Part shown: positions 7,406 through 53,544 of the stretch, piece by piece | Position numbering within the stretch: the first letter of the stretch is position 1 | How the letters are laid out: each line of letters starts with the position of its first letter | DNA from: Bacteroidales bacterium | GTDB lineage: Bacteria > Bacteroidota > Bacteroidia > Bacteroidales > UBA932 | Direction of reading: 5' to 3' | NCBI GenBank assembly: GCA_017439305.1 | Contig: JAFSJK010000053.1 | Location: 1-64,000 of the forward strand | DNA: 64,000 bases | Made by a program: the position numbers and the translations under genes | Notes under the pieces: generated by a model | What the model saw: only the letters and a program-made list of their open reading frames with translations | The model's database searches: none | Told to the model about the DNA's origin: nothing

Positions 7406-9913
7406 ATGACCAAGAAACCGTTCCTATGCCTCTCCGCCGCGGGTTTCACCGCAGCCATACTCCTGTCCCTCTCCCTTGCCGCCTCCGCCCAGCCTGCCGG
7501 TCGGACCTCCTTCAACAAAGGCTGGACCTTTGAAAAAGACGGTGTCCGGAAAACCGTCGACCTGCCCCACGACTGGGGCGTGGAAGGGGCGTTCCGGCAG
7601 GAATATCCCGGAGAATCCGGCAAACTGGCCTGGTGGGGGAAGGCCGTCTACACGAAACAGCTGACCGTCGGCCTGGAAGAACTCCTTTCCAAGGACATCG
7701 ACCTGGAAATCGACGGGGCGATGTCGCACGCGACGGTTTCCGTGAACGGGGTCGAGCTGGGTGGCTGGCCGTATGGCTACGCCTCCTTCGCCGTCCGCCT
7801 GAATCCGGCCCTGAGAGCCGGTGAGAACACGGTTTCCGTCTCGATCGACAATCCTGAAGACTCTTCCCGCTGGTACCCCGGCGGCGGCATCTACCGGAAT
7901 GTCTGGCTCACGAAGACGAACAAGACCTCCGTCGCCCATTGGGGGACTTATGTCACGACGGAACCCCGGGACATCCGGAACGCTGCAAAGATTGATTCCA
8001 GGTCCAAGGTGCTGGTGGGTGACGCCACCGTCACCCTCCGCGTCACCCTCAAGCACACCGGCGAAAAGACCGTCGGCATGGTCCGTACGCAGATCCTCCT
8101 CGAGGAACATTACCTCGGCCCCATGGCCAATGACATGGTCGTGCACCGGATCGTCGCCGAAACCCGCAGCATCGAGTATATCGAAGACGGGAAGACGGTC
8201 GTCCAGACCTTCGACCTGGAGGACGTTCCTCTCTGGAGCCCGGAGAAACCGGAAATGTACCTCGCCCGCACGACCGTGGAGACGCCCGACGAGGTGCTGG
8301 ACAAGTACGAGACGCCGTTCAGCATCCGCGCGGCCGAGTGGAAGGCCGACGGTTTCTACCTCAACGATGAAAAATACTTCCTGAAGGGCGTCTGCCTGCA
8401 TCATGACGCTGGCGCGCTCGGCGCCGCCTGGAACGAAGACGCCTGGGTCCGCCGCTTCACGATGCTCAAGAAGATGGGCTGCAATGCCATCCGGACATCC
8501 CACAACCCCCCGGCGCCGGAGTTCCTGGACCTGTGTGACCGGATGGGCTTCCTGGTACTGGACGAACTGACCGATACCTGGACCGTTCCCAAGAAGAAAA
8601 ACGGCTATGCCGGCCTGTTCGACGAATGGGTGGAGAAAGACCTCACGGCCATGATCCACCGCGACCGCAACCATCCTTCCGTCATCGCCTGGTCCATCGG
8701 CAACGAATGCGGCGAGCAGGGGGACAGCACCAAATGGTGGATCCCGCAGATGCTCACCGACCTCTGCCACCGGGAGGATCCGACGCGGCCAACCACGGCC
8801 GGCAACGACAACCCCTGGGCCGCCAGCCAGGGCTATGCCGCCACCATCGACGTATACGGATTCAACTACAAGCCGCACCTGTATGCGGAGTTCGTGAAAA
8901 ACCACCCCGGCCAGCCGGTTTACGGTTCGGAAACGGCCTCCTGCATCTCCACGCGGGGCTATTACCGTTTCCCCGTGGAACAGGAAAAGGGCAAGGGCTG
9001 GTCGATGGACGCCCCCTTCCAGGTGAGCTCCTACGACCTGTATGCCCCCGGATGGGCCTCCAAGCCCGATTTTGAATGGGAATATGAGGATGTGGTTCCG
9101 GAATGTGCGGGCGAGTTCGTCTGGACCGGCTACGACTACCTGGGCGAACCCACGCCCTTCAACATGGACCCGTCCGTCCTGACCAACTTCCACTCCGAGG
9201 AGGAGAAAGAGGCCTTCAAGAAGATGGTCGCGGGCTGGGGACAGGCGATCGCCGAGGTCCCGCTTCCGTCCCGGAGCTCCTATTTCGGCATCATCGACCT
9301 CGCCGGCTTCCCGAAGGACCGCTACTGGCTGTACCAGGCGCGCTGGCGTCCGGACCTGCCGATGGTCCACCTCCTTCCGCACTGGACCTGGCCCGGCCGG
9401 GAAGGTCAGGTGACCCCGGTCCACGTCTATACTTCCGGCGACGAGGCTGAATTGTTCATCAACGGCAAATCCCAGGGCCGGAAGACGAAGGAAGGCTACC
9501 GCATCGTCTGGGACGACGTGGTCTATGAGCCCGGCGAACTGACGGTCGTCACCTGGAAGGACGGCAAGACCTGGGCGACGGAAACCCTCCGCACCGCTGG
9601 TGCTGTGAAACAGGCCGAGCTGACAAAAGATTTCATCGGCAAGGACCTGACCTTCATCACCGCCCGGCTCGTCGACAAGGACGGAACGACCGCCCCCGAC
9701 GCAGACAACCTACTGACTTTCAAGGTAGAAGGTCCCGCCATCCTCGTCGCGACGGATGCCGGGGACCCTACCTCCCATACGCCCTTCCACAGCCCTGAAA
9801 TCCGGGCATTCCACGGTCTCGCTTCCGCCATCGTCCGGCGCACCGGACCCGGTACCGTCACCGTCTCCGTTACCGCCAAGGGCCTGAAATCCGAAAAAAT
9901 CATCATGAAATGA
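7406..9913 (+). CDS. Glycoside hydrolase family 2 protein (beta-galactosidase-like)
   Basis: 835 residues from the ATG at 7406, with a signal peptide ending near AASAQP. Domains in order: sugar-binding jelly roll (about 25-180), Ig-like beta-sandwich (about 190-310), TIM barrel (about 315-620), then C-terminal DUF4982-like and Ig-like domains. The acid/base is Glu434 in SIGNECGEQ and the nucleophile Glu509 in VYGSETAS. Bacteroidetes GH2 enzymes of this shape act on beta-galactosides, beta-glucuronides or related side chains in the periplasm. First gene of a five-gene operon; its stop overlaps the next start (ATGA). A longer upstream reading runs through the promoter and is rejected. Confidence 0.9.
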   Translation: MTKKPFLCLSAAGFTAAILLSLSLAASAQPAGRTSFNKGWTFEKDGVRKTVDLPHDWGVEGAFRQEYPGESGKLAWWGKAVYTKQLTVGLEELLSKDIDLEIDGAMSHATVSVNGVELGGWPYGYASFAVRLNPALRAGENTVSVSIDNPEDSSRWYPGGGIYRNVWLTKTNKTSVAHWGTYVTTEPRDIRNAAKIDSRSKVLVGDATVTLRVTLKHTGEKTVGMVRTQILLEEHYLGPMANDMVVHRIVAETRSIEYIEDGKTVVQTFDLEDVPLWSPEKPEMYLARTTVETPDEVLDKYETPFSIRAAEWKADGFYLNDEKYFLKGVCLHHDAGALGAAWNEDAWVRRFTMLKKMGCNAIRTSHNPPAPEFLDLCDRMGFLVLDELTDTWTVPKKKNGYAGLFDEWVEKDLTAMIHRDRNHPSVIAWSIGNECGEQGDSTKWWIPQMLTDLCHREDPTRPTTAGNDNPWAASQGYAATIDVYGFNYKPHLYAEFVKNHPGQPVYGSETASCISTRGYYRFPVEQEKGKGWSMDAPFQVSSYDLYAPGWASKPDFEWEYEDVVPECAGEFVWTGYDYLGEPTPFNMDPSVLTNFHSEEEKEAFKKMVAGWGQAIAEVPLPSRSSYFGIIDLAGFPKDRYWLYQARWRPDLPMVHLLPHWTWPGREGQVTPVHVYTSGDEAELFINGKSQGRKTKEGYRIVWDDVVYEPGELTVVTWKDGKTWATETLRTAGAVKQAELTKDFIGKDLTFITARLVDKDGTTAPDADNLLTFKVEGPAILVATDAGDPTSHTPFHSPEIRAFHGLASAIVRRTGPGTVTVSVTAKGLKSEKIIMK

Positions 9914-44626: not shown

Positions 44627-46165
44627 CTACAGATTCCGCAGCAGGTTCGTCAGGGAGACCTTCTTGTCGATGAGGGCACGGAGGTCTTCAATCTTCACGC
44701 GCTCCTGGGTCATCGTGTCACGGTCACGGACAGTAACGCAACCGTCGACGAGGGTATCGTGGTCCACGGTCACGCAGAAAGGCGTACCGATCGCGTCCTG
44801 ACGACGATAGCGCTTGCCGATGGAATCCTTCTCGTCATACTGGTAGGAGAAGTCGTACTTGAGTTCGTCGACCACCTTCTGGGCCACCTCGGGCAGGCCG
44901 TCCTTCTTTACGAGCGGCATCACGGCCACCTTGATCGGGGCGAGCGGGGCGGGAATCTTCATCACGACGCGCTCCTCACCGTTCTCGAGCTTCTCCACGG
45001 TGTAGCTGTGGGCCATGACGGCCAGGCACATGCGGTCCACGCCGATGGACGTTTCGATGACGTACGGGGTATAGGAGACATTCTCCTCAGGATCAAAGTA
45101 TTCGATCTTCTTGCCGGAGAACTTCTGATGGTTCCCGAGGTCGAAGTTCGTACGGCTGTGGATACCCTCGAGCTCCTTGAAACCGAACGGGAAGTTGAAC
45201 TCGATGTCGGTGGCGGCATTGGCATAGTGGGCCAGCTTCTCATGGTCGTGGAAGCGGTAGTTCTCCGCCCCCATCCCCAGGTTCACATGCCACTTCATAC
45301 GGGCTTCCTTCCATTTGGCGAACCACTCGAGCTCCGTGCCGGGCTTGATGAAGAACTGCATCTCCATCTGTTCGAACTCGCGCATACGGAAGATGAACTG
45401 CCGGGCCACGATCTCGTTGCGGAAGGCCTTGCCGATCTGCGCGATGCCGAACGGAATCTTCATGCGGCCGGTCTTCTGGACGTTCAGGTAGTTGACAAAG
45501 ATGCCCTGGGCGGTCTCCGGGCGCAGATAAATGGTATTCGCGCCTTCGGCCGTGGAGCCCATGGAGGTCTGGAACATCAGGTTGAACTGGCGGACATCCG
45601 TCCAGTTGCAGGTGCCGCTGATGGGGCAGACGATGTTGTTGTCGATGATGATCTGCCGGTACTCGGCCAGGTCGTTGGCCTTCTCGGCAGCCACGTACCG
45701 GTTATGCACCTCGTCCCACTTGGCCTGCTCGCGCAGGACGTTGGGGTTCGTGGCGCGGAACTGGGCCTCGTCGAAGGAATCGCCGAAACGCTTGCGGCCC
45801 TTGGCGACCTCCTTGTTCATCTTTTCCTCGATCTTTCCGAGGAAGTCCTCAATCAGGACATCCGCACGATAGCGCTTCTTGGAATCCTTGTTGTCAATGA
45901 GCGGGTCGTTGAAGGCTCCCACATGGCCCGAGGCCTCCCAGATGCGGGGGTGCATGAAGATGGCGGAGTCGATGCCCACGATGTTCTCGTGCAGGCGGGT
46001 CATCGCTTCCCACCAATAGGTCTTGATGTTATTCTTGAGCTGGACGCCCATCTGGCCGTAGTCGTACACGGCGGCAAGGCCGTCATAAATTTCACTGGAC
46101 GGGAAAATGAACCCGTACTCCTTGCAGTGCGCAACCAGCACTTTGAAAAGTTCGTCTTGTGTCAT
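44627..46165 (-). CDS. glyS: Glycyl-tRNA synthetase (alpha2 type)
   Basis: 512 residues from the ATG at 46165 (MTQDELFKVLVAHCKEYGF); a GTG two codons up is less likely. Class II features: PSSEIYDGLAAVYDYGQMG, FRNEIVARQFIFRMREFEQME (motif 2), ETSIGVDRMCLAVM (motif 3), and a C-terminal anticodon-binding domain (PLAPIKVAVMPLVKKDGLPE, GTPFCVTVDHDTL). It charges tRNA-Gly. It lies between folK and the serpin gene with short spacers. Confidence 0.97.
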   Translation of the reverse strand: MTQDELFKVLVAHCKEYGFIFPSSEIYDGLAAVYDYGQMGVQLKNNIKTYWWEAMTRLHENIVGIDSAIFMHPRIWEASGHVGAFNDPLIDNKDSKKRYRADVLIEDFLGKIEEKMNKEVAKGRKRFGDSFDEAQFRATNPNVLREQAKWDEVHNRYVAAEKANDLAEYRQIIIDNNIVCPISGTCNWTDVRQFNLMFQTSMGSTAEGANTIYLRPETAQGIFVNYLNVQKTGRMKIPFGIAQIGKAFRNEIVARQFIFRMREFEQMEMQFFIKPGTELEWFAKWKEARMKWHVNLGMGAENYRFHDHEKLAHYANAATDIEFNFPFGFKELEGIHSRTNFDLGNHQKFSGKKIEYFDPEENVSYTPYVIETSIGVDRMCLAVMAHSYTVEKLENGEERVVMKIPAPLAPIKVAVMPLVKKDGLPEVAQKVVDELKYDFSYQYDEKDSIGKRYRRQDAIGTPFCVTVDHDTLVDGCVTVRDRDTMTQERVKIEDLRALIDKKVSLTNLLRNL

Positions 46166-46184
46166 ATTCACTTGTTTAATCTTG

Positions 46185-46192
46185 CAAATTTA
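46185..46192 (-). promoter_or_regulatory. Possible internal -7 element upstream of glyS
   Basis: TAAATTTG on the minus strand, 19 bp upstream of the glyS ATG and overlapping the folK stop. No -33 element was found at standard spacing. It could give glyS its own transcript within the suf-folK-glyS-serpin operon. Confidence 0.4.
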
Positions 46193-46672
46193 CGCAAATA
46201 AATCGGGAAACGCCGCTTTCAGCGAGGGTTTTGCGATCTCCGCCAGGGGAATCTTCACGAAATCCCGCACGGCGATCAGGGGATGCGGAACCTGCAGGTC
46301 TTCACAGTCAATCCGTTCCTTCCCGTAAAATAGGAGGTCGATATCAATGGCCCGGTCGTGGTATACCCGCAGGCCTTCGGCGTCGAATTCGGGCGCGTCC
46401 GTGCGTCCAAGGGCCCTTTCAACCGCCTTGCAGAGCGCCAGGATTTCATGCCCGTGCTTCTCAGGACTCCCCTTCCGGCCGATCCGGTACCGCACGCAGG
46501 CATTCAGGAAGGAATCTCCTTCAAACCCCCAGGCTTCGGTTTCGACAATTCGGGAAAGAGCTTCGTAAGGATGGCCGAACCCCTGATCCAGCAGTTCCAG
46601 CGCCCGCATGAGGTTTTGCTGGCGGTCTCCCTGGTTGGATCCGAGTCCCAGATATACGTTCACGAAAGCCAT
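46190..46672 (-). CDS. folK: 2-amino-4-hydroxy-6-hydroxymethyldihydropteridine pyrophosphokinase
   Basis: 160 residues, the usual HPPK size. YLGLGSNQGDRQQNL at the N-terminus, VETEAWGFEGDSFLNACV, and ALGRTDAPEF/YHDRAIDIDLLFYG, with the conserved aspartates that bind Mg-ATP, then VPHPLIAVRDFVKIPLAEIA. It transfers pyrophosphate to the pterin in folate synthesis. Immediately follows the sufE-sufT fusion gene. Confidence 0.96.
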   Translation of the reverse strand: MAFVNVYLGLGSNQGDRQQNLMRALELLDQGFGHPYEALSRIVETEAWGFEGDSFLNACVRYRIGRKGSPEKHGHEILALCKAVERALGRTDAPEFDAEGLRVYHDRAIDIDLLFYGKERIDCEDLQVPHPLIAVRDFVKIPLAEIAKPSLKAAFPDLFA

Positions 46673-47491
46673 CTAGCTCAGCTTTCCGTAATCGTCCTCC
46701 TCGTAGTCCAGCCCCAGGTCCACCCGGGCCTCCTCGGACAGCATGCTGCGGTCCCACACCGGCTCGAAGGTCAACTCGATGTGGCATCCCGTCACGCCAG
46801 GGACCCTTTTTACACTTTCCTCCACCTCGTGCATGACCTCGTCCGCCATCGGGCAGTTCGGAGCCGTGAAAGTCATCACGATGGAAACCTTCCGCTCCTT
46901 GTCGATATTCAACTCGTAAATCAGGCCCAGGTCGTAGATGTTCACCGGAATCTCCGGATCGTACACCTGCTTGAGGGCCAGGATCACGTCGGAATACAAC
47001 GGCTGAAGGGCGGCGACGTCCTCGGCCGTGAGGACATCGGCCTGCTTTTCGGGGACGGCCTTTTCGTTCCGGGCAGCCTGGTCGGCCATTTCTTTCGCAG
47101 CCTGCTTGATGGTCTCGATCATGGAAACCAGACCGTTGGCGCGGGTCGGGGACAGGTTCTCGCGAAGACCGATCTCGTTCACGAAGCCGAAATCGTCGGC
47201 GGCGATTTCCGCCGGTGTGCGGCCGGAATAGACGCTGATGAGCAGCGAGATGATGCCTTTGGTGATGATGGCGTCGCTGTCGGCCCGGAAATACAGTTTC
47301 CCGTCCTTCAGTTCATAGTCCAGCCATACGCGAGACTGGCAGCCCTTGATGAGCTTGTCCTCGGTCTTCTCCTCTTCCGGATAGGCCTCCAGGGCCTTCC
47401 CCAGCTCGATCAAGTATTCATACTTGTCCAGCCATTCGTCGTACATCGAAAACTCCTCGATGACCGCCTGTTTTTTCTCTTCCAAGGTCAT
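46673..47491 (-). CDS. SufE-SufT fusion protein (Fe-S cluster assembly)
   Basis: 272 residues from the ATG at 47491, which overlaps the sufS stop (ATGA). The N-terminal SufE domain (1-140) has the acceptor Cys51 in KGCQSRVWLDYE and the tail helix LSPTRANGLVSMIETI. A linker of about 25 charged residues leads to a DUF59/SufT (MIP18) domain (about 165-262): DVILALKQVYDPEIPVNIYDLGLIY, FTAPNCPMADEV. SufE takes sulfur from the SufS cysteine desulfurase; SufT-type proteins help mature Fe-S proteins. Fusion places sulfur relay and cluster delivery on one chain. A start further up inside sufS is less likely. Confidence 0.93.
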   Translation of the reverse strand: MTLEEKKQAVIEEFSMYDEWLDKYEYLIELGKALEAYPEEEKTEDKLIKGCQSRVWLDYELKDGKLYFRADSDAIITKGIISLLISVYSGRTPAEIAADDFGFVNEIGLRENLSPTRANGLVSMIETIKQAAKEMADQAARNEKAVPEKQADVLTAEDVAALQPLYSDVILALKQVYDPEIPVNIYDLGLIYELNIDKERKVSIVMTFTAPNCPMADEVMHEVEESVKRVPGVTGCHIELTFEPVWDRSMLSEEARVDLGLDYEEDDYGKLS

Positions 47492-48714
47492 ATCAACATC
47501 GAAATCGCTTTGTTCAAACACTTTACGAAATACTCCGCCTCCTCCATCGTATTATAAGGGGCGAAACTCACCCGGAGCATGCCGGTCACGCCGCACCGGT
47601 CCATCAGGGGCTCGGCACACATCTGGCCGGAACGGACGGCAATCCCCATCTTGTCCAGGATAAGGGCCAGATCCTCATGGTGAACGCCCTCCACGGAGAA
47701 GGAGAACAGCGGTATCTTCACCTGTGTTCCACGAGGAACACCATACACCCGGATCCGGGAATCCGCCGCCAGCGCTTCCGTCAGGTAGTGGGTGATCGCC
47801 CATTCATTCTGCGCAACCTCCGGGTCCTGCTGGAATTGCCGGGCCAACCGGAGTGCTTCCTGAAGCGTCGGAACGGCATTGAAATTCTGGGTGCCGGCCT
47901 CGAACTTGCCGGGAAGCGGAGCGAAGGTCGTTCCGGAGAAACGGACCGTCTCGATCATCTCTCCCCCGCCCATATACGGCGGCATCGCATCGAGCCATTT
48001 TTTCTTTCCGTACAGCACGCCGGTTCCGGTTGCTCCGTATACTTTGTGCCCGGAGAAGGCATAGAAGTCGCAATCCATCTCCTGCACGTCCACTTCTTCG
48101 TGGATGCTCCCCTGCGCACCGTCCACCAGCACCGGAATGTCGTGTCCGTGCGCAATCCGAACGATTTCCCGTACCGGGTTTACAAGGCCTAACACATTGG
48201 AAATGTGAGAGATAGCTATAATTTTAGTACGCTGAGAAATCAATTTTTCCAGGGAGTCGACCTGCAGGCCGCCGAATTCGTCAATGTCAAGGACTTTGAG
48301 GGCAGCCTTCTTGCGCTGGCAAAGGAGCTGCCAGGAAACGATGTTGGAATGATGCTCCGCCACCGAAACGATGATCTCGTCTCCTTCGTGGACGAAGGCC
48401 TCCCCGAAACAGGAAGCGACCAGGTTGATGGACATCGTTGTCCCGGAAGTGAAAATGATCTCTTCCCGACTGCCGGCATTCAGGAAATCCTTGACGATAT
48501 CCCGTGTCCGCTCATATTCCTCCGTCGCATCGACGGCCAGTTTATGGACGGCGCGATGGATGTTGGCATTGGCCGTCGATGCCAGGGCGCGCTCCTTGTC
48601 GAGCACGCTGACCGGCCGCTGTGCGGTCGCCGCGTTATCCAGATACACGAGCGGCTTACCGTACACCGTCTGCGCCAAAGCAGGGAATTGGCTTCTGATT
48701 TCCTCCGGTTTCAT
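47488..48714 (-). CDS. sufS: Cysteine desulfurase SufS
   Basis: 408 residues from the ATG at 48714 (MKPEEIRSQFPAL). PLP lysine in FYAFSGHKVYGATGTGVLYG; active-site Cys in VRSGQMCAEPLMDR; VAEHHSNIVSWQ is the class II (SufS) aminotransferase-type signature. It removes sulfur from cysteine and passes it to SufE, which is encoded directly downstream. SufBCD are not in this window. An upstream TTG would overlap the -7 element, so it is not used. The gene contains a parS-like 16-mer at 47725. Confidence 0.96.
   Translation of the reverse strand: MKPEEIRSQFPALAQTVYGKPLVYLDNAATAQRPVSVLDKERALASTANANIHRAVHKLAVDATEEYERTRDIVKDFLNAGSREEIIFTSGTTMSINLVASCFGEAFVHEGDEIIVSVAEHHSNIVSWQLLCQRKKAALKVLDIDEFGGLQVDSLEKLISQRTKIIAISHISNVLGLVNPVREIVRIAHGHDIPVLVDGAQGSIHEEVDVQEMDCDFYAFSGHKVYGATGTGVLYGKKKWLDAMPPYMGGGEMIETVRFSGTTFAPLPGKFEAGTQNFNAVPTLQEALRLARQFQQDPEVAQNEWAITHYLTEALAADSRIRVYGVPRGTQVKIPLFSFSVEGVHHEDLALILDKMGIAVRSGQMCAEPLMDRCGVTGMLRVSFAPYNTMEEAEYFVKCLNKAISMLI
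47725..47740. other. parS-like site 1 (inside sufS)
   Basis: TGTTCCACGAGGAACA differs at one position (10) from the palindromic ParB-binding site TGTTCCACGTGGAACA. It falls within sufS codons for GVPRGTQ. Two more such sites lie within 2.1 kb and none was found elsewhere in the window. Confidence 0.55.
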
Positions 48715-48719
48715 TCTTC

Positions 48720-48750
48720 TTTGATAAGTCTGCAAATTTACATATTTTTG
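48720..48750 (+). promoter_or_regulatory. Promoter of ruvA
   Basis: TTTG at 48720-48723, exactly 19 bp, TATTTTTG at 48743-48750: a full consensus promoter. The ATG of ruvA begins only 5 bp after it, so the mRNA is predicted to be leaderless. Confidence 0.75.
48733..48740 (-). promoter_or_regulatory. -7 element of sufS, overlapping the ruvA promoter
   Basis: TAAATTTG on the minus strand, 18 bp upstream of the sufS ATG. It lies between the -33 and -7 elements of the divergent ruvA promoter, so the two promoters occupy the same DNA and may compete. No standard -33 partner was seen. Confidence 0.5.
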
Positions 48751-48754
48751 CGTT

Positions 48755-49342
48755 ATGATAGATTATATTAAAGGACAAATCATCGAACTGACGCCCACGG
48801 AACTCATCCTGGAATGCGGTGGCATCGGATACAGCATCCTCATTTCCCTCCAGACCTACGAAGCCCTGCAACTCAAGACGCAGGCCGTTGCCTATATCCA
48901 TCATTACATCCGCGAAGACGAAGAGCTCTTCTACGGCTTTGCCACCAAGGACGAACGGGAACTCTTCCGTCTCCTGATCGGCGTTTCCGGCATCGGCGTC
49001 GCCTCCGCCCGCATGATGCTCTCCTCCCTGACTTCCGAAGAAATCCGTCAGGCCATCCTCTCCGAGAATATCAGCAAAATCAAGAGCGTGAAAGGCATCG
49101 GCCTCAAAAGCGCCCAACGCCTGGTTCTGGAACTGAAAGACAAGATCGTCAAAGGCGCCGGATCTGACACCAGTTCTATCTTCAAGACCGATACCAACGC
49201 CCTGGTCGACGAGGCCACCACCGCCCTCGTCATGCTCGGCTTCTCAAAGGCCAACATCAATAAAGTCATGCCGGCCATCCTCAAGGAAAACCCGAACGCC
49301 AAGGTCGAAGACCTCATCAAAGCAGCCCTCAAGAAACTCTAG
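48755..49342 (+). CDS. ruvA: Holliday junction branch migration protein RuvA
   Basis: 195 residues. An N-terminal OB fold (MIDYIKGQIIELTPTELILECGGIGYSI), two helix-hairpin-helix units (LLIGVSGIGVASARMML and IKSVKGIGLKSAQRLVLEL) and a C-terminal domain III (TTALVMLGFSKANINKVMPAIL) that contacts RuvB. It binds four-way junctions as a tetramer. ruvB is not adjacent here. The gene faces mnmG convergently across a long hairpin. Confidence 0.97.
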   Translation: MIDYIKGQIIELTPTELILECGGIGYSILISLQTYEALQLKTQAVAYIHHYIREDEELFYGFATKDERELFRLLIGVSGIGVASARMMLSSLTSEEIRQAILSENISKIKSVKGIGLKSAQRLVLELKDKIVKGAGSDTSSIFKTDTNALVDEATTALVMLGFSKANINKVMPAILKENPNAKVEDLIKAALKKL

Positions 49343-49375
49343 TTTCCAGTTTTACAGTATAACCCGCTCCCGGCG

Positions 49376-49433
49376 GAGACAGACATAGGGTTCAAGCTCC
49401 GAAAAAAAGTCGCTTGAACCCTATGTCTGTCTC
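49376..49433. terminator. Long perfect hairpin between convergent ruvA and mnmG
   Basis: Arms 49376-49397 and 49412-49433 form a perfect 22-bp inverted repeat; the 14-nt loop is TCCGAAAAAAAGTC. It probably acts on both converging transcripts. No T-run follows the stem on either side. The loop and the closing GC pairs are shared with the hairpin at 22738-22796, though the stems are unrelated. About 140 bp of non-coding DNA remain before the mnmG stop. Confidence 0.7.
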
Positions 49434-49539
49434 TATTGCCGAGAGCTAACAATAATCCGCCACCCTGCATAATATTATAGACAATAAGAGGCAGAGGGTG
49501 TTATTTCGGAAACCTGTGGCCACCCTCGGCCAGAAAGAT

Positions 49540-49555
49540 TGTTCTACGTGGAACA
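49540..49555. other. parS-like site 2 (intergenic ruvA-mnmG)
   Basis: TGTTCTACGTGGAACA differs from TGTTCCACGTGGAACA at position 6 only. It lies in the non-coding stretch just beyond the mnmG stop codon, not near a promoter. Confidence 0.6.
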
Positions 49556-49577
49556 AAAGCCCGAAGGAGAAGGTATG

Positions 49578-51437
49578 CTAGCGACCGAAATAGACGAGGA
49601 GGACGGAGATGTCGGCGGGGGAGATGCCGGAGATTCGGGAGGCTTGGGCGATGGTTTCGGGCTTGTAGCGCTTCAGTTTCTGGCGGCATTCAATGGAAAG
49701 AGACTGGACGCGGTCGAAATCGAAGTCGGCGGGAATCTTGATATATTCCAAGCGGTTGTTCTTCTCGGCCTGTTGTTTTTCGCGTTCGATATACCCCTCA
49801 TACTTGATTCCAATCTCAACAGACTCGATAACCTCGGAAGAAAATGTTCCACATGGAACAAATTCCAACAAAGACTTCAGCGATAGTTCTGGCCGTGCGA
49901 CCAATTCGGCAAGACGCTTGGAGTCCGAAAGGGGAGCAGATCCCAAAGAACTCAAATAGTCATTGACAACCTCTGCACGGACTTTCTTGGATGCACAGAT
50001 AGAATCCAATCGGGAAACCTCCTCTTTCTTCCGGCAAACAGCCGCATAGCGATCCTCGGAGGCCAACCCTAACGAGTGGGACAGTTCCGTCAAACGGAAA
50101 TCGGCATTATCCTGGCGAAGCAGGATCCGATATTCGGCGCGGGAAGTAAACATCCGGTAGGGCTCGTCCACACCCTTGTTGATCAAGTCGTCAATCAAAA
50201 CGCCAATGTATGCCTGGTCACGACGCAGGATAAACGGCTCCTCCCCGGCAAGCTTGCGATGCGCATTGATGCCCGCCATCAACCCCTGCGCAGCGGCTTC
50301 TTCATACCCGGTGGTTCCATTGACCTGGCCAGCCAGGAAAAGGTTTTCCACAATCCGGGACTCCAGGGAATAGTTCAAGTACTGCGGATCGAAATAATCA
50401 TACTCTACCGCATAAGCCGGTTTGAAGACGACCGCATGCTCCAAGCCGGGAATGGCATGCAGGGCCTCCAACTGAACCTCCAAGGGAAGGGAAGAGGAGA
50501 ATCCCTGCAGGTAGTACTCTGGATTGTTGCGGCCTTCCGGCTCGAGGAATAACTGGTGGGAATCCTTGTCGGCAAAAGTGCGCAACTTGTCCTCGATGCT
50601 CGGGCAGTATCTCGGCCCGCGGCCATGAATCAAGCCGGTAAAGAGGGGAGAGCGGTCAAAGCCGGAGCGGAGGATCTCGTGGACTCTCTCATTCGTATGC
50701 AGGATGTAGCAGTCCATCTGGGGACGGCCCGACTGGATCGCGGAAGGAAGGTCCAGGAAAGAGAAACGCTCCGGAGAAGGATCGCCAACTTGGACCGGAA
50801 GTTTGGATAGATCCAACGACCGGACGTCGATCCGCGGGGGAGTGCCGGTCTTCATCCGGGCGGTCGGGACACCCATCGAAGCAAGCTGGTCGGAAACGTG
50901 ATAAGCCGCAAGCTCGCCGAGACGACCGCCCTCGAATGCGTGCGGTCCGATGAACATCCGGCCATTCAGGAAGGTCCCGGCGGTCAAAACAACTGCTCGA
51001 GATTTGAATTCTGCCCCGGTAATCGTACGGACGCCCGTCAAAACGTCATTCTCAAAGAGAAGATTTTCGACAAAATCGACGTAAATACTTAATTTAGAGC
51101 AACTTAGAAGAACATCTCGCCACTTCAGAGAAAAGGCGAGTTTATCGCACTGCGCACGCGGACTCCACATAGCTGGCCCCTTGGACCGGTTGAGCATCCG
51201 GAACTGGAGCGTAGCGGCATCTGTCACAATGCCGGACCAGCCGCCGAGCGCATCAATCTCCCGGACGATCTGTCCCTTGGCGATTCCGCCCACCGCCGGG
51301 TTGCAGGACATCTTGGCAAGACCGTTCAGGTCGGGGGTAATGAGCAGGACGGAAGAGCCCAGCGTTGCCGCAGCCATCGCCGCCTCGCATCCCGCGTGTC
51401 CGCCGCCTATGACGATGATGTCATAACTCCCGGTCAT
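49578..51437 (-). CDS. mnmG: tRNA uridine-5-carboxymethylaminomethyl modification enzyme MnmG
   Basis: 619 residues. N-terminal FAD motif [101 protein letters not shown], and the C-terminal MnmE-interacting helical domain ending in [18 protein letters not shown]. With MnmE it modifies U34 of several tRNAs. It overlaps the ybeY stop (ATGA) and contains a parS-like 16-mer near its 3' end. Confidence 0.98.
49845..49860. other. parS-like site 3 (inside mnmG)
   Basis: TGTTCCACATGGAACA differs from the palindromic parS consensus only at position 9. It falls in mnmG codons for VPCGTF. parS sites are frequently found in and around gidA/mnmG close to the replication origin in other bacteria. Confidence 0.6.
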
Positions 51438-51853
51438 ACCAGCTCCCGCAGCGAAAGGTAGTAATTCTCCTTGGCCCGCATCTGGGCGATATCCGCCTTC
51501 GTATGGTCATCGTAACCGATCAGGTGCAGGACACCGTGGACAATCACGCGGTTCAGTTCATCGGCGAACGCGGTTCCGTAATGCTCGGCATTCTCACGGA
51601 CGGAATCGACGCTGATGAAAAGGTCGCCGTTCAGGCGGTCGCCTTCGCAGTAATCAAAGGTGATGATATCCGTGAAGTAGTCGTGCTGGAGATACTTCAT
51701 GTTCACGTCCAGGATGTAATTGTCCGAACAGAAAATGATGGCGATGTCCCCGAGCCGGCGGATTTCACTTTCGGCCACGAGCTTGAGCCAGCGGCTGGTA
51801 AGGCGTTTTTCCTTGAACGAGAACTTCGTATCTTCCGTAAAATAGGTAACCAT
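51434..51853 (-). CDS. ybeY: Endoribonuclease YbeY (16S rRNA maturation)
   Basis: 139 residues from the ATG at 51853 ([13 protein letters not shown]). The zinc-binding motif is [13 protein letters not shown] near the C-terminus, and [15 protein letters not shown] is the conserved core strand/helix. It is a metal-dependent RNase in 16S 3'-end maturation and ribosome quality control. It shares an operon with mnmG by a 4-bp overlap. The longer start six codons up would overlap the -7 element's transcript start and is less likely. Confidence 0.95.
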
Positions 51854-51868
51854 AACCGAGATTTTGTG

Positions 51869-51876
51869 CAAATCTA
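51869..51876 (-). promoter_or_regulatory. -7 element of ybeY-mnmG
   Basis: TAGATTTG on the minus strand, 15 bp upstream of the ybeY ATG; a TTG on that strand lies 21 bp further up (51898-51900). The predicted leader is about 10 nt. Confidence 0.5.
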
Positions 51877-51889
51877 CGAATAAAATGGC

Positions 51890-51897
51890 TATTTTTG
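51890..51897 (+). promoter_or_regulatory. -7 element of hflX
   Basis: TATTTTTG, 37 bp upstream of the hflX start codon. A TTTG at 51863-51866 is 23 bp away, slightly long. It overlaps the divergent ybeY promoter region. Confidence 0.5.
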
Positions 51898-51934
51898 CAA
51901 GTCAACACCAGACGGATTATATATAATATAAGGT

Positions 51935-53119
51935 ATGAGTCAATACAAGACGGAGAAAGCCGTGTTCGTGGGCGTCGTCCTGGAAAAGGGAGGGGAGCGC
52001 AAGGTGCAGGAGTATCTGGACGAACTCCAGTTCCTGGCGGAAACCGCCGGCGCCATCGGTGACAAGATGTTCATGCAGCGGATGGACCGGCCCGACAAGG
52101 CCACCTACATCGGCACGGGCAAGTTGAAGGAGATCAAGGAGTATTGCGAGGAGAACGAAATCCAGTACGTCATCTTCGACGACGAGCTCACCGGGACACA
52201 GCAGCGCAACATCGAAAAGATTATCGAATGCTGCGACGTCATCGACCGGACGAGCCTCATTCTCGAGATCTTTGCCCAGCGGGCTAAGACGTCCTATGCG
52301 AAGACGCAGGTGGAACTGGCGCATTATCAATATATGTTACCGCGGCTGGCCGGCATGTGGACGCACCTGGAGCGGCAGCGGGGCGGCATGGGAACACGAG
52401 GCGGTATGGGCGAAACCCAGATCGAGGTGGACCGCCGGATCGTCAAGCAGCAGATCGCCAAGCTCAAGGAGGAACTCAAAAAAGTGGACCGACAGATGGC
52501 CACCCAGCGCAGCAACCGCGGATCCCTGGTGCGCCTGGCGCTCGTCGGATACACCAACGTCGGCAAGAGTACCCTGATGAACCTGCTGGCAAAATCTGAT
52601 GTGTTCGCAGAGAACAAGCTCTTTGCCACGCTGGACACGACCGTACGGAAAGTGGTCATTGAAAACTGCCCGTTCCTGCTGTCCGACACCGTCGGATTCA
52701 TCCGGAAGCTACCCACCCAGCTGGTCGAAGCCTTCAAAAGCACCCTGGACGAAGTCCGGGAGGCCGATATCCTCGTCCACGTGGTGGACATTTCCCATCC
52801 CGACTTCGAGGAACAGATGCAAGTGGTGGAACAGACCCTCCGGGACATCGGCGCGGCGAACAAACCCGTCTTCGTCGTTTTTAACAAGGTGGACGCCTAC
52901 ACCTACGAGCCGTACGACGAGTACTCCCTCACGCCGAAAGAGGCCCGGAACCGGACGCTGGATGAATTGAAGAACAGTTGGATCGCCCTGGAAAAGACCC
53001 CTTGCATCTTCATCTCGGCCAAGGAGAAAATCGGCATCGACAAATTACGGAACGATTTGTACAAGATGGTCGCCGAAATCCATGCCGGCCGGTATCCATT
53101 CAATAACTTCTTGTGGTAG
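51935..53119 (+). CDS. hflX: Ribosome-associated GTPase HflX
   Basis: 394 residues. The N-terminal HflX domain (about 1-190) has RMDRPDKATYIGTGKLKEIKE, QRNIEKIIECCDVIDRTSLILEIFAQRAKT and GGMGTRGGMGETQIEVDRR. The G domain has LVGYTNVGKSTLMN (G1), the switch I segment NKLFATLDTTVRK, DTVGFIRKLP (G3) and FNKVD (G4), then SAKEKIG (G5). HflX splits stalled or hibernating ribosomes. Transcribed divergently from ybeY. Confidence 0.97.
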   Translation: MSQYKTEKAVFVGVVLEKGGERKVQEYLDELQFLAETAGAIGDKMFMQRMDRPDKATYIGTGKLKEIKEYCEENEIQYVIFDDELTGTQQRNIEKIIECCDVIDRTSLILEIFAQRAKTSYAKTQVELAHYQYMLPRLAGMWTHLERQRGGMGTRGGMGETQIEVDRRIVKQQIAKLKEELKKVDRQMATQRSNRGSLVRLALVGYTNVGKSTLMNLLAKSDVFAENKLFATLDTTVRKVVIENCPFLLSDTVGFIRKLPTQLVEAFKSTLDEVREADILVHVVDISHPDFEEQMQVVEQTLRDIGAANKPVFVVFNKVDAYTYEPYDEYSLTPKEARNRTLDELKNSWIALEKTPCIFISAKEKIGIDKLRNDLYKMVAEIHAGRYPFNNFLW

Positions 53120-53138
53120 ACGGCCTGTTTCGGTCCGT
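53120..53138 (+). terminator. Weak hairpin after hflX
   Basis: ACGGCC pairs with GG-T-CCGT (one bulged T) directly after the hflX stop, followed by TTCGTTC. The stem is short and imperfect, and the T-run poor. Confidence 0.3.
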
Positions 53139-53412
53139 TTCGTTCAAAAGGGGAAAATACAGGTTCCTTTCAAATTGATAGGGGCATTCTAAAAGGCTGA
53201 AACAAAAGGGCCTTGCAGCTTTCTATAGGCCCGAAAAGGGCGAAAAAAAGCAAAATGAATAAAAACTTCATAAAATTTTTAAATTTTAATTTGACAGCAA
53301 AATCCTATTATAATTTATAATTATTCACTATCTTGTCCCCAAATATTGAATAAATACAAACACTTGGGACCCGAAAACTTAACCTCTCTAACCATCCGTC
53401 TTCGTGGCCGAT

Positions 53413-53446
53413 TTGCAAATTTGAATTTTGTTTTCAAACTTTGCAA
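53413..53446. other. Inverted repeat in the susC leader
   Basis: TTGCAAATTTGAA (53413-53425) pairs with TTCAAA-C-TTTGCAA (53433-53446): 13 base pairs with one bulged C and a 7-nt T-rich loop. It could be a leader hairpin or an operator for a dimeric regulator. Confidence 0.5.
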
Positions 53447-53544
53447 CCGAAAGCCGTTTGACAAAGCGGCCGGTTAGTGGTGTATATAGGTACAAAGAAT
53501 CAAGTTTTTGTATCAAAATATTATGTTTAATCAAAATTTAACCA

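Follow-up and report, generated by a model that had tools for sequence, protein, structure and literature searches.

In a 64,000-nucleotide stretch of a Bacteroidales bacterium genome (assembly GCA_017439305.1, contig JAFSJK010000053.1, positions 1 to 64,000 of the forward strand; the window), three 16-bp palindromes clustered around the gene mnmG (gidA) are very probably parS centromere sites of the chromosomal ParABS system, to which ParB is predicted to bind. The original prediction, which had described a cluster of parS-like sites around ruvA and mnmG, was supported by the uniqueness and clustering of the sites, by a ParA and ParB pair with parS-type residues, by the recurrence of such sites at mnmG across the genus, order and phylum samples, and by constraint on the DNA of mnmG. 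Through its helix-turn-helix domain ParB would attach to each site, and it would then close as a CTP-loaded clamp, sliding into the flanking DNA, followed by the pulling apart of the resulting partition complex by ParA once the region had been replicated. The binding of ParB, the sliding of its clamp, the movement driven by ParA and a position near the origin are inferred from the findings given below.

The three sites and their chance expectation

All scans were made with TGTTCCACGTGGAACA (16 bp) as the reference pattern, and mismatches were counted against it. Each of the three 16-mers was found to differ from this pattern by one base, giving a 16-bp palindrome close to TGTTYCACGTGRAACA. The scan returned exactly the 16-mers at 47725, 49540 and 49845 that had been picked out earlier, and their placement was as claimed, with the first in sufS, the second in the intergenic gap of 235 bases between the convergent ruvA and mnmG, and the third in mnmG (Table 1). 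In the window, one further match was found with up to three mismatches; it was located at 8967 and differed by three bases, in keeping with the claim that the motif occurs nowhere else in the 64 kb. None of 100 shuffled windows reached four matches.

The draft genome consists of 2,986,037 bases in 90 contigs and is 92.6% complete. The three sites were its sole matches with up to two mismatches, and they were not spread over the genome, all three being contained in a span of 2,136 bp. The reversed-pattern control yielded two forward matches at up to two mismatches and none at one mismatch, where three real sites were present. The bare count at two mismatches is unimpressive because the control also gives two matches there. 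From a first-order Markov model built on the window, the expected number of matches with up to one mismatch was 0.0007 per 64 kb, which agrees with the earlier statement that chance expectation was far below one, and 0.03 per genome; with up to two mismatches it was 0.73 per genome. By the same calculation, the chance that three points placed at random share a stretch of 2,136 bp was about 1.5e-6.

The original prediction had also held that TGTTC and GAACA stay intact and that only the centre varies. TGTTC...GAACA was indeed found to be intact in all three sites of this genome, whereas genus-wide the outermost base was the one that changed most. In a tally of 89 sites with up to two mismatches (this genome and loci L090-L136), with half-site bases numbered from the outside, the first base had changed 36 times, the seventh 18 times, the eighth (centre) 7 times, the sixth 4 times, the second twice and the fifth once, and the third and fourth were unchanged throughout.

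ParA, ParB and SMC

A profile search with TIGR00180 found a single ParB-family protein in the genome (E 9e-53, contig C88), and a gene for a ParA-type ATPase was located directly upstream of parB (L004, 509-1354). The ParB was found to contain ParB_N and HTH_ParB domains together with the GERRYRA (CTP) motif, and by sequence it matched the Spo0J and ParB chains of solved structures. Its residues were mapped by an alignment with 14 relatives having strong ParB matches, in the numbering of PMC7383237; the counts were taken from this alignment because an earlier helix-turn-helix pattern scan had missed 10 of 17 loci. Passages of PMC7383237 give R173 and G201 as the parS-specific pair and Gln173 and Arg201 as the residues of Noc. 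The residues Q162, G170, K171, R173, N178 and G201 were conserved in all 15 ParBs. Position 172 was occupied by Lys (Asn in one), position 184 by Lys in the 15 ParBs, and position 204 by Lys in ten genus ParBs and by Arg in five order outgroups. As R173 and G201 are parS-specific, the ParB gives no reason for an altered specificity. The ParB itself lent no support to the earlier idea that it may accept degeneracy at the centre, since this pair was present in 15/15 ParBs and many sites of relatives were perfect palindromes.

No SMC protein was found above the cut-off (best 49 against 567 bits) in the profile search of the 92.6% complete genome, nor was ScpA found in it. Canonical SMC loading by ParB and parS may therefore not apply here. 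A C28 open reading frame (1,457 residues, coiled-coil, weak SMC match) was considered as a condensin and rejected, since Pfam showed no SMC domain in it and an OmpA-family gene adjoins it.

Occurrence of the sites at mnmG in relatives

The genus search covered 61 genomes, 36 of which were counted as same-genus, and sites with up to one mismatch were sought with the reversed control alongside. A site was found in 25 of the 36 same-genus genomes and in all 12 of those that were at least 90% complete, and the reversed control gave matches in 1 of the 61 genomes. The gene mnmG was present in all 29 fetched loci of relatives (L006-L034; 19 from the genus, 10 from the order).

The order sample contained 60 genomes, this one included and the others at least 95% complete, and was searched with the Y/R pattern, one mismatch being allowed. 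Sites were found in 55/60 genomes, the reversed control matched in 7/60, and mnmG was present in 59/60. The distance to mnmG was computed for the 75 forward sites listed (at least 75 exist). Among these listed sites, 38 of 41 exact and 20 of 34 one-mismatch sites were no more than 2 kb from mnmG, and at least one site at that distance was held by 36 of the 37 genomes listed. Since the earlier order loci had been picked by parS, 30 loci picked by mnmG alone were added, and a site was found in 26 of them (within the fetched 1.5 kb flanks). In the phylum sample, 78 of 80 genomes contained a site and 14 matched the reversed control, and mnmG was present in 24 of the 29 phylum loci fetched.

A further set comprised 80 named mnmG loci; the nearest were from uncultured rumen and gut Bacteroidales, and two of the 80 were from Candidatus Cryptobacteroides, the genus in or near which the window is tentatively placed. 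In 72/80 a site (Y/R pattern, up to one mismatch) was no further than about 600 bp from the mnmG stop codon, and five others (L100, L101, L102, L106 and L115) contained a two-mismatch site in the mnmG slot described below. Relatives frequently carried the site just past the mnmG stop, as site 2 does here, and a site was found at mnmG even in relatives where ruvA and sufS are not its neighbours. In several other families mnmG was observed with a parS-like site at both ends, the two spaced by about 1.9 kb (G039, G041 and G047; also G163, G136, G132 and G152, these four partly by spacing).

Codon slots in mnmG and sufS

The mnmG site was found to occupy a fixed codon slot, 282 bases ahead of the stop codon when no insertion was present, and this slot encoded V-P-x-G-T in 41 of 48 sequences. 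Among sequences with the same residue, the share of the commonest codon was 1.00 for GTT, 0.91 for CCA, 0.93 for CGT, 1.00 for GGA and 0.60 for ACA, against an average of 0.42 (sd 0.13) for the 278 mnmG columns that could be compared; the last base of ACA is the outermost base of parS, which is the tolerant one. The same codons were uncommon in 14 open reading frames of the window (GTT 0.12, CCA 0.02, CGT 0.16, GGA 0.15, ACA 0.03). In the mnmG slot the codons, and not just the residues, were nearly fixed though uncommon in these frames, which is direct evidence that selection acts there on the DNA and not on the protein alone.

A synonymous-conservation scan of seven genes gave two clear outliers, both in mnmG, namely residues 111-119 (score 9.1) and the parS slot (8.5). 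Weaker stretches reached to about residue 154, and the next best values were below 5. The SufE-like gene had 4 sequences, too few for synonymous scoring. In 70 order outgroups, neither the block at residues 111-119 nor the parS slot stood out in mnmG (best window 4.1). About 50-100 extra residues were observed between the slot and the mnmG stop in L028, L029, L111, L121, L127, L128, L133, L135 and L136, and the insertion started right after the slot in L133, L135 and L136.

The site in sufS was found to encode V-P-R-G-T in 8 of 42 SufS sequences (this genome, L090, L099, L105, L107, L110, L130 and L131). In L099 the ruvA-sufS segment was inverted relative to mnmG, and its sufS kept a perfect site in the same slot.

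Position relative to the replication origin

The strongest negative-to-positive change of GC skew was located 9-46 kb from the sites in all five site-bearing contigs. It was 42 kb away in contig C48 of this genome (t 5.7), 46 kb in G050 (t 6.1), 9 kb in G013 (t 9.6), 13 kb in G093 (t 17.7) and 9 kb in G016 (t 3.4), where the cumulative minimum lay 14 kb away; the change was strong in G013 and G093 and weak in G016. The contig carrying dnaA in this genome was found to contain no such switch (best t -1.1). The replication origin thus probably lies within tens of kb of the sites. The skew change in the five contigs supports the earlier suggestion of a region near the origin but does not fix the origin, and the GC-skew minima did not coincide with mnmG. 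A search for oriC by clusters of DnaA boxes (TTWTNCACA) gave no convincing candidate, the densest 600-bp windows containing 4 boxes in G050 (356 kb), 3 in G016 (236 kb) and 2 elsewhere, with none at mnmG.

The skew minimum was observed within about 1.2 kb of a homologue of this genome's RuvB in G013 (C1, about 418 kb) and in G093 (C1, about 368 kb), a possible origin landmark. The RuvB gene of this genome was located at 70.6-71.7 kb of C48, and the minimum lay elsewhere in its own contig, in G016 and in G050.

Fifteen relatives were searched for ParB and DnaA. A ParB was found in all but G032, and in each of these 14 its gene was on a different contig from parS and mnmG; the contig carrying the over-cut-off DnaA likewise differed in 15/15. 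In G013, G016, G050 and G093 the nearest contig end was about 150 kb or more from the sites; the other assemblies may simply be broken.

Weighing of the alternatives

An ordinary transcription factor that uses the palindromes as operators to control mnmG, sufS or ruvA is very unlikely. Palindromic 16-mers are typical of operators and one of the three is intergenic, but that site follows the 3′ ends of a convergent gene pair and both others are deep in reading frames, a placement which, as had been argued earlier, fits a segregation site over a repressor operator. The motif is moreover the chromosomal parS consensus, unique to this region of the genome, and it was found at mnmG in relatives without ruvA and sufS beside it. 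Sites of the Noc (nucleoid occlusion) type are less probable still. The ParB scored 238.8 on the NCBIfam model nucleoid_noc, below the cut-off of 315 bits, and contains the permissive Lys184, and site 3 has a Noc-type adenine at position 1 of one half-site. However, the one ParB-family protein found by TIGR00180 carries R173 and G201 and not Q173 and R201, and in the numbering given in passages of PMC7383237 guanine 1 was present in 5/6 half-sites and adenine 6 in 6/6.

The coding sites could in principle reflect a conserved Val-Pro-Arg-Gly-Thr protein motif and not the DNA, as the frequency of V-P-x-G-T in mnmG would allow. This is highly improbable, since the codons as well as the residues were near fixed, the same residues with GTT/CCN/CGT/GGA/ACN codons recurred in the unrelated SufS (8/42 sequences), and the mnmG of the order outgroups was without the codon block, yet in many of them the 16-mer was found shortly after the stop codon. 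A chance origin or a repetitive element is the least credible of all. The reversed control came close to the real pattern at two mismatches (2 against 3 matches), but at one mismatch the three observed and clustered sites stand against an expectation of 0.03, and the motif recurred at mnmG in dozens of genomes.

Several findings weigh against parS sites of a chromosomal ParABS system. Occupancy of the sites by ParB is itself predicted from sequence. The three sites of this genome are imperfect palindromes while many relatives carry perfect ones, and two contact residues of the ParB differ from Caulobacter (S172K and R204K). In this genome parAB and dnaA were located on a contig other than the parS contig. 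The skew change of its own contig is 42 kb off and moderate, and the relatives' stretches are partial and cut around the site, so that GC skew counts as support and not as proof. No match was found in 5/60 order genomes and 2/80 phylum genomes, nor was any site found in L035, L043, L045 and L060. Among the order sites listed, 3/41 exact and 14/34 one-mismatch sites were away from mnmG, and 5/29 of the fetched phylum loci were without mnmG. Neither L137, where a contig end cuts the locus, nor L167 matched when two mismatches were allowed, and L140 contained scattered two-mismatch matches only. The sufS slot is not general, being present in the 8/42 sequences with a synonymous conservation score of 1.4 for its window, which is no outlier.

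Second constrained block in mnmG

The other outlier of the scan marks a second synonymously constrained and AT-rich block in mnmG, present across most of the clade (Table 1). The clade set of the scan excluded 7 of the 47 loci L090-L136 (L122, L123, L125, L126, L129, L132 and L134), which favours the second block because these seven were chosen after it had been seen to be absent there. With all 48 rows kept, the windows at 114 and 527 still tied for the top of 272 (0.89, median 0.50). With up to two mismatches, the block core matched in 32 of the 61 genomes of the genus search, and one reversed control matched too. This genome failed the core search, its more diverged copy having three mismatches in the 19-mer. 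Among 30 fetched loci the core was inside mnmG in 26; a site was seen in 25 of these, and there the core and the parS slot were 1,238 or 1,241 bases apart.

No consensus pairs were predicted by RNAalifold over 30 sequences of the block, and no Rfam match at the gathering score was found in 46000-53500. A reading of the block as an RNA structure was rejected, the L102 copy folding barely better than its shuffles (z -1.4, 19/200 as good). The block may be a DNA element, as its synonymous conservation suggests. A tentative and rather unlikely extension is that in this genus mnmG is a composite chromosome-maintenance locus, in which a second signal about 1.24 kb from parS (codons 111-154) cooperates with the centromere or the origin and the reading frame has been co-opted as a scaffold. 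The second signal would then act, for example, as an initiator or as an accessory site of the partition complex.

Neighbouring genes and features

The coordinates of the sites and of the surrounding features are given in Table 1. The name SufS was assigned because a gene with a SufE domain is adjacent; this neighbour (46673-47521) was found to encode one 282-residue protein in which the SufE domain is fused to FeS_assembly_P (iron-sulfur assembly). The whole ruvA-mnmG intergenic region gave a folding z of -8.4, and the 22-bp inverted repeat in it is probably a bidirectional terminator, separate from the parS sites. The hairpin was considered as a part of the parS system and rejected, as its arm has no second copy in the window (up to three mismatches) and its position suits a terminator.

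Table 1. Predicted parS sites and other features of the window (strand "." where none is assigned).
Feature	Sequence	Position	Strand	Description
Predicted parS site 1	TGTTCCACGAGGAACA	47725..47740	.	inside sufS; coding (-) strand reads V-P-R-G-T, residues 333-337
Predicted parS site 2	TGTTCTACGTGGAACA	49540..49555	.	intergenic, 22 bases past mnmG stop codon
Predicted parS site 3	TGTTCCACATGGAACA	49845..49860	.	inside mnmG; coding (-) strand reads V-P-C-G-T, residues 527-531
mnmG (gidA)		49578..51437	-	TIGR00136, PF01134, PF21680, PF13932; tRNA-modifying enzyme; holds site 3, adjoins site 2
ruvA		48755..49342	+	RuvA_N, HHH_5, RuvA_C; convergent with mnmG; between sites 1 and 2
sufS-like gene		47488..48735	-	cysteine desulfurase, aminotransferase fold; Aminotran_5; holds site 1
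Perfect 22-bp inverted repeat		49376..49433	.	14-base loop; between convergent ruvA and mnmG
Second synonymously constrained block		50976..51107	-	mnmG residues 111-154, strongest 111-119; AT-rich
Inverted repeat	TAAAT-TAAGT-ATTTA	within 51080-51098		in second mnmG block
Inverted repeat	TTCTC-TTT-GAGAA	51049-51061		in second mnmG block

Comparison with known systems and significance

The Bacillus subtilis parS consensus is TGTTNCACGTGAAACA, as tabulated in a passage of PMC7022226. The cluster resembles the chromosomal parS of ParABS systems in its 16-bp palindrome, its confinement to one region and the ParA and ParB pair with parS-type residues; its position, supported by GC skew, is probably near the origin too. 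It differs in that genes contain two of the three sites, one of these in a conserved codon slot, that the cluster tracks mnmG and not parAB or dnaA, and that no SMC above the cut-off and no ScpA were found, whereas SMC-ScpAB loading is common, though not universal, in such systems. In the same phylum, Bacteroides caecimuris and Muribaculum intestinale likewise contain parS clusters. Passages of PMC10197239, a Hi-C study of gut bacteria that includes these two species, describe an origin placed by parS clusters and GC skew, point out that dnaA may lie away from the origin, and report that neither species has a known homologue of condensin. The separate contigs of dnaA and parS agree with this, and in the present genome too no SMC above the cut-off and no ScpA were found. 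Those passages name no genes around parS and no gene-embedded slots.

In the searched literature (passages of PMC7333895, PMC13342612, PMC6381624, PMC10197239, PMC7022226 and PMC7383237; a 2007 comparative parS survey was outside this scope), no mention was found of a Bacteroidota-wide linkage of parS to mnmG, of slots embedded in genes or of the second mnmG block. The parS itself is of a known kind, and the mnmG linkage, the embedded slots and the second block are apparently unreported in that literature.

The gene mnmG, chiefly its 3′ end, provides a simple landmark by which the predicted centromere can be located in many Bacteroidota, also in draft genomes from metagenomes, in which dnaA can mislead. 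It offers a clean case of a centromere site encoded in the codons of an enzyme, where ParB binding could be addressed by synonymous recoding alone. The finding also raises how parS would function in a lineage without detected SMC-ScpA, and it exposes a second constrained element in mnmG.

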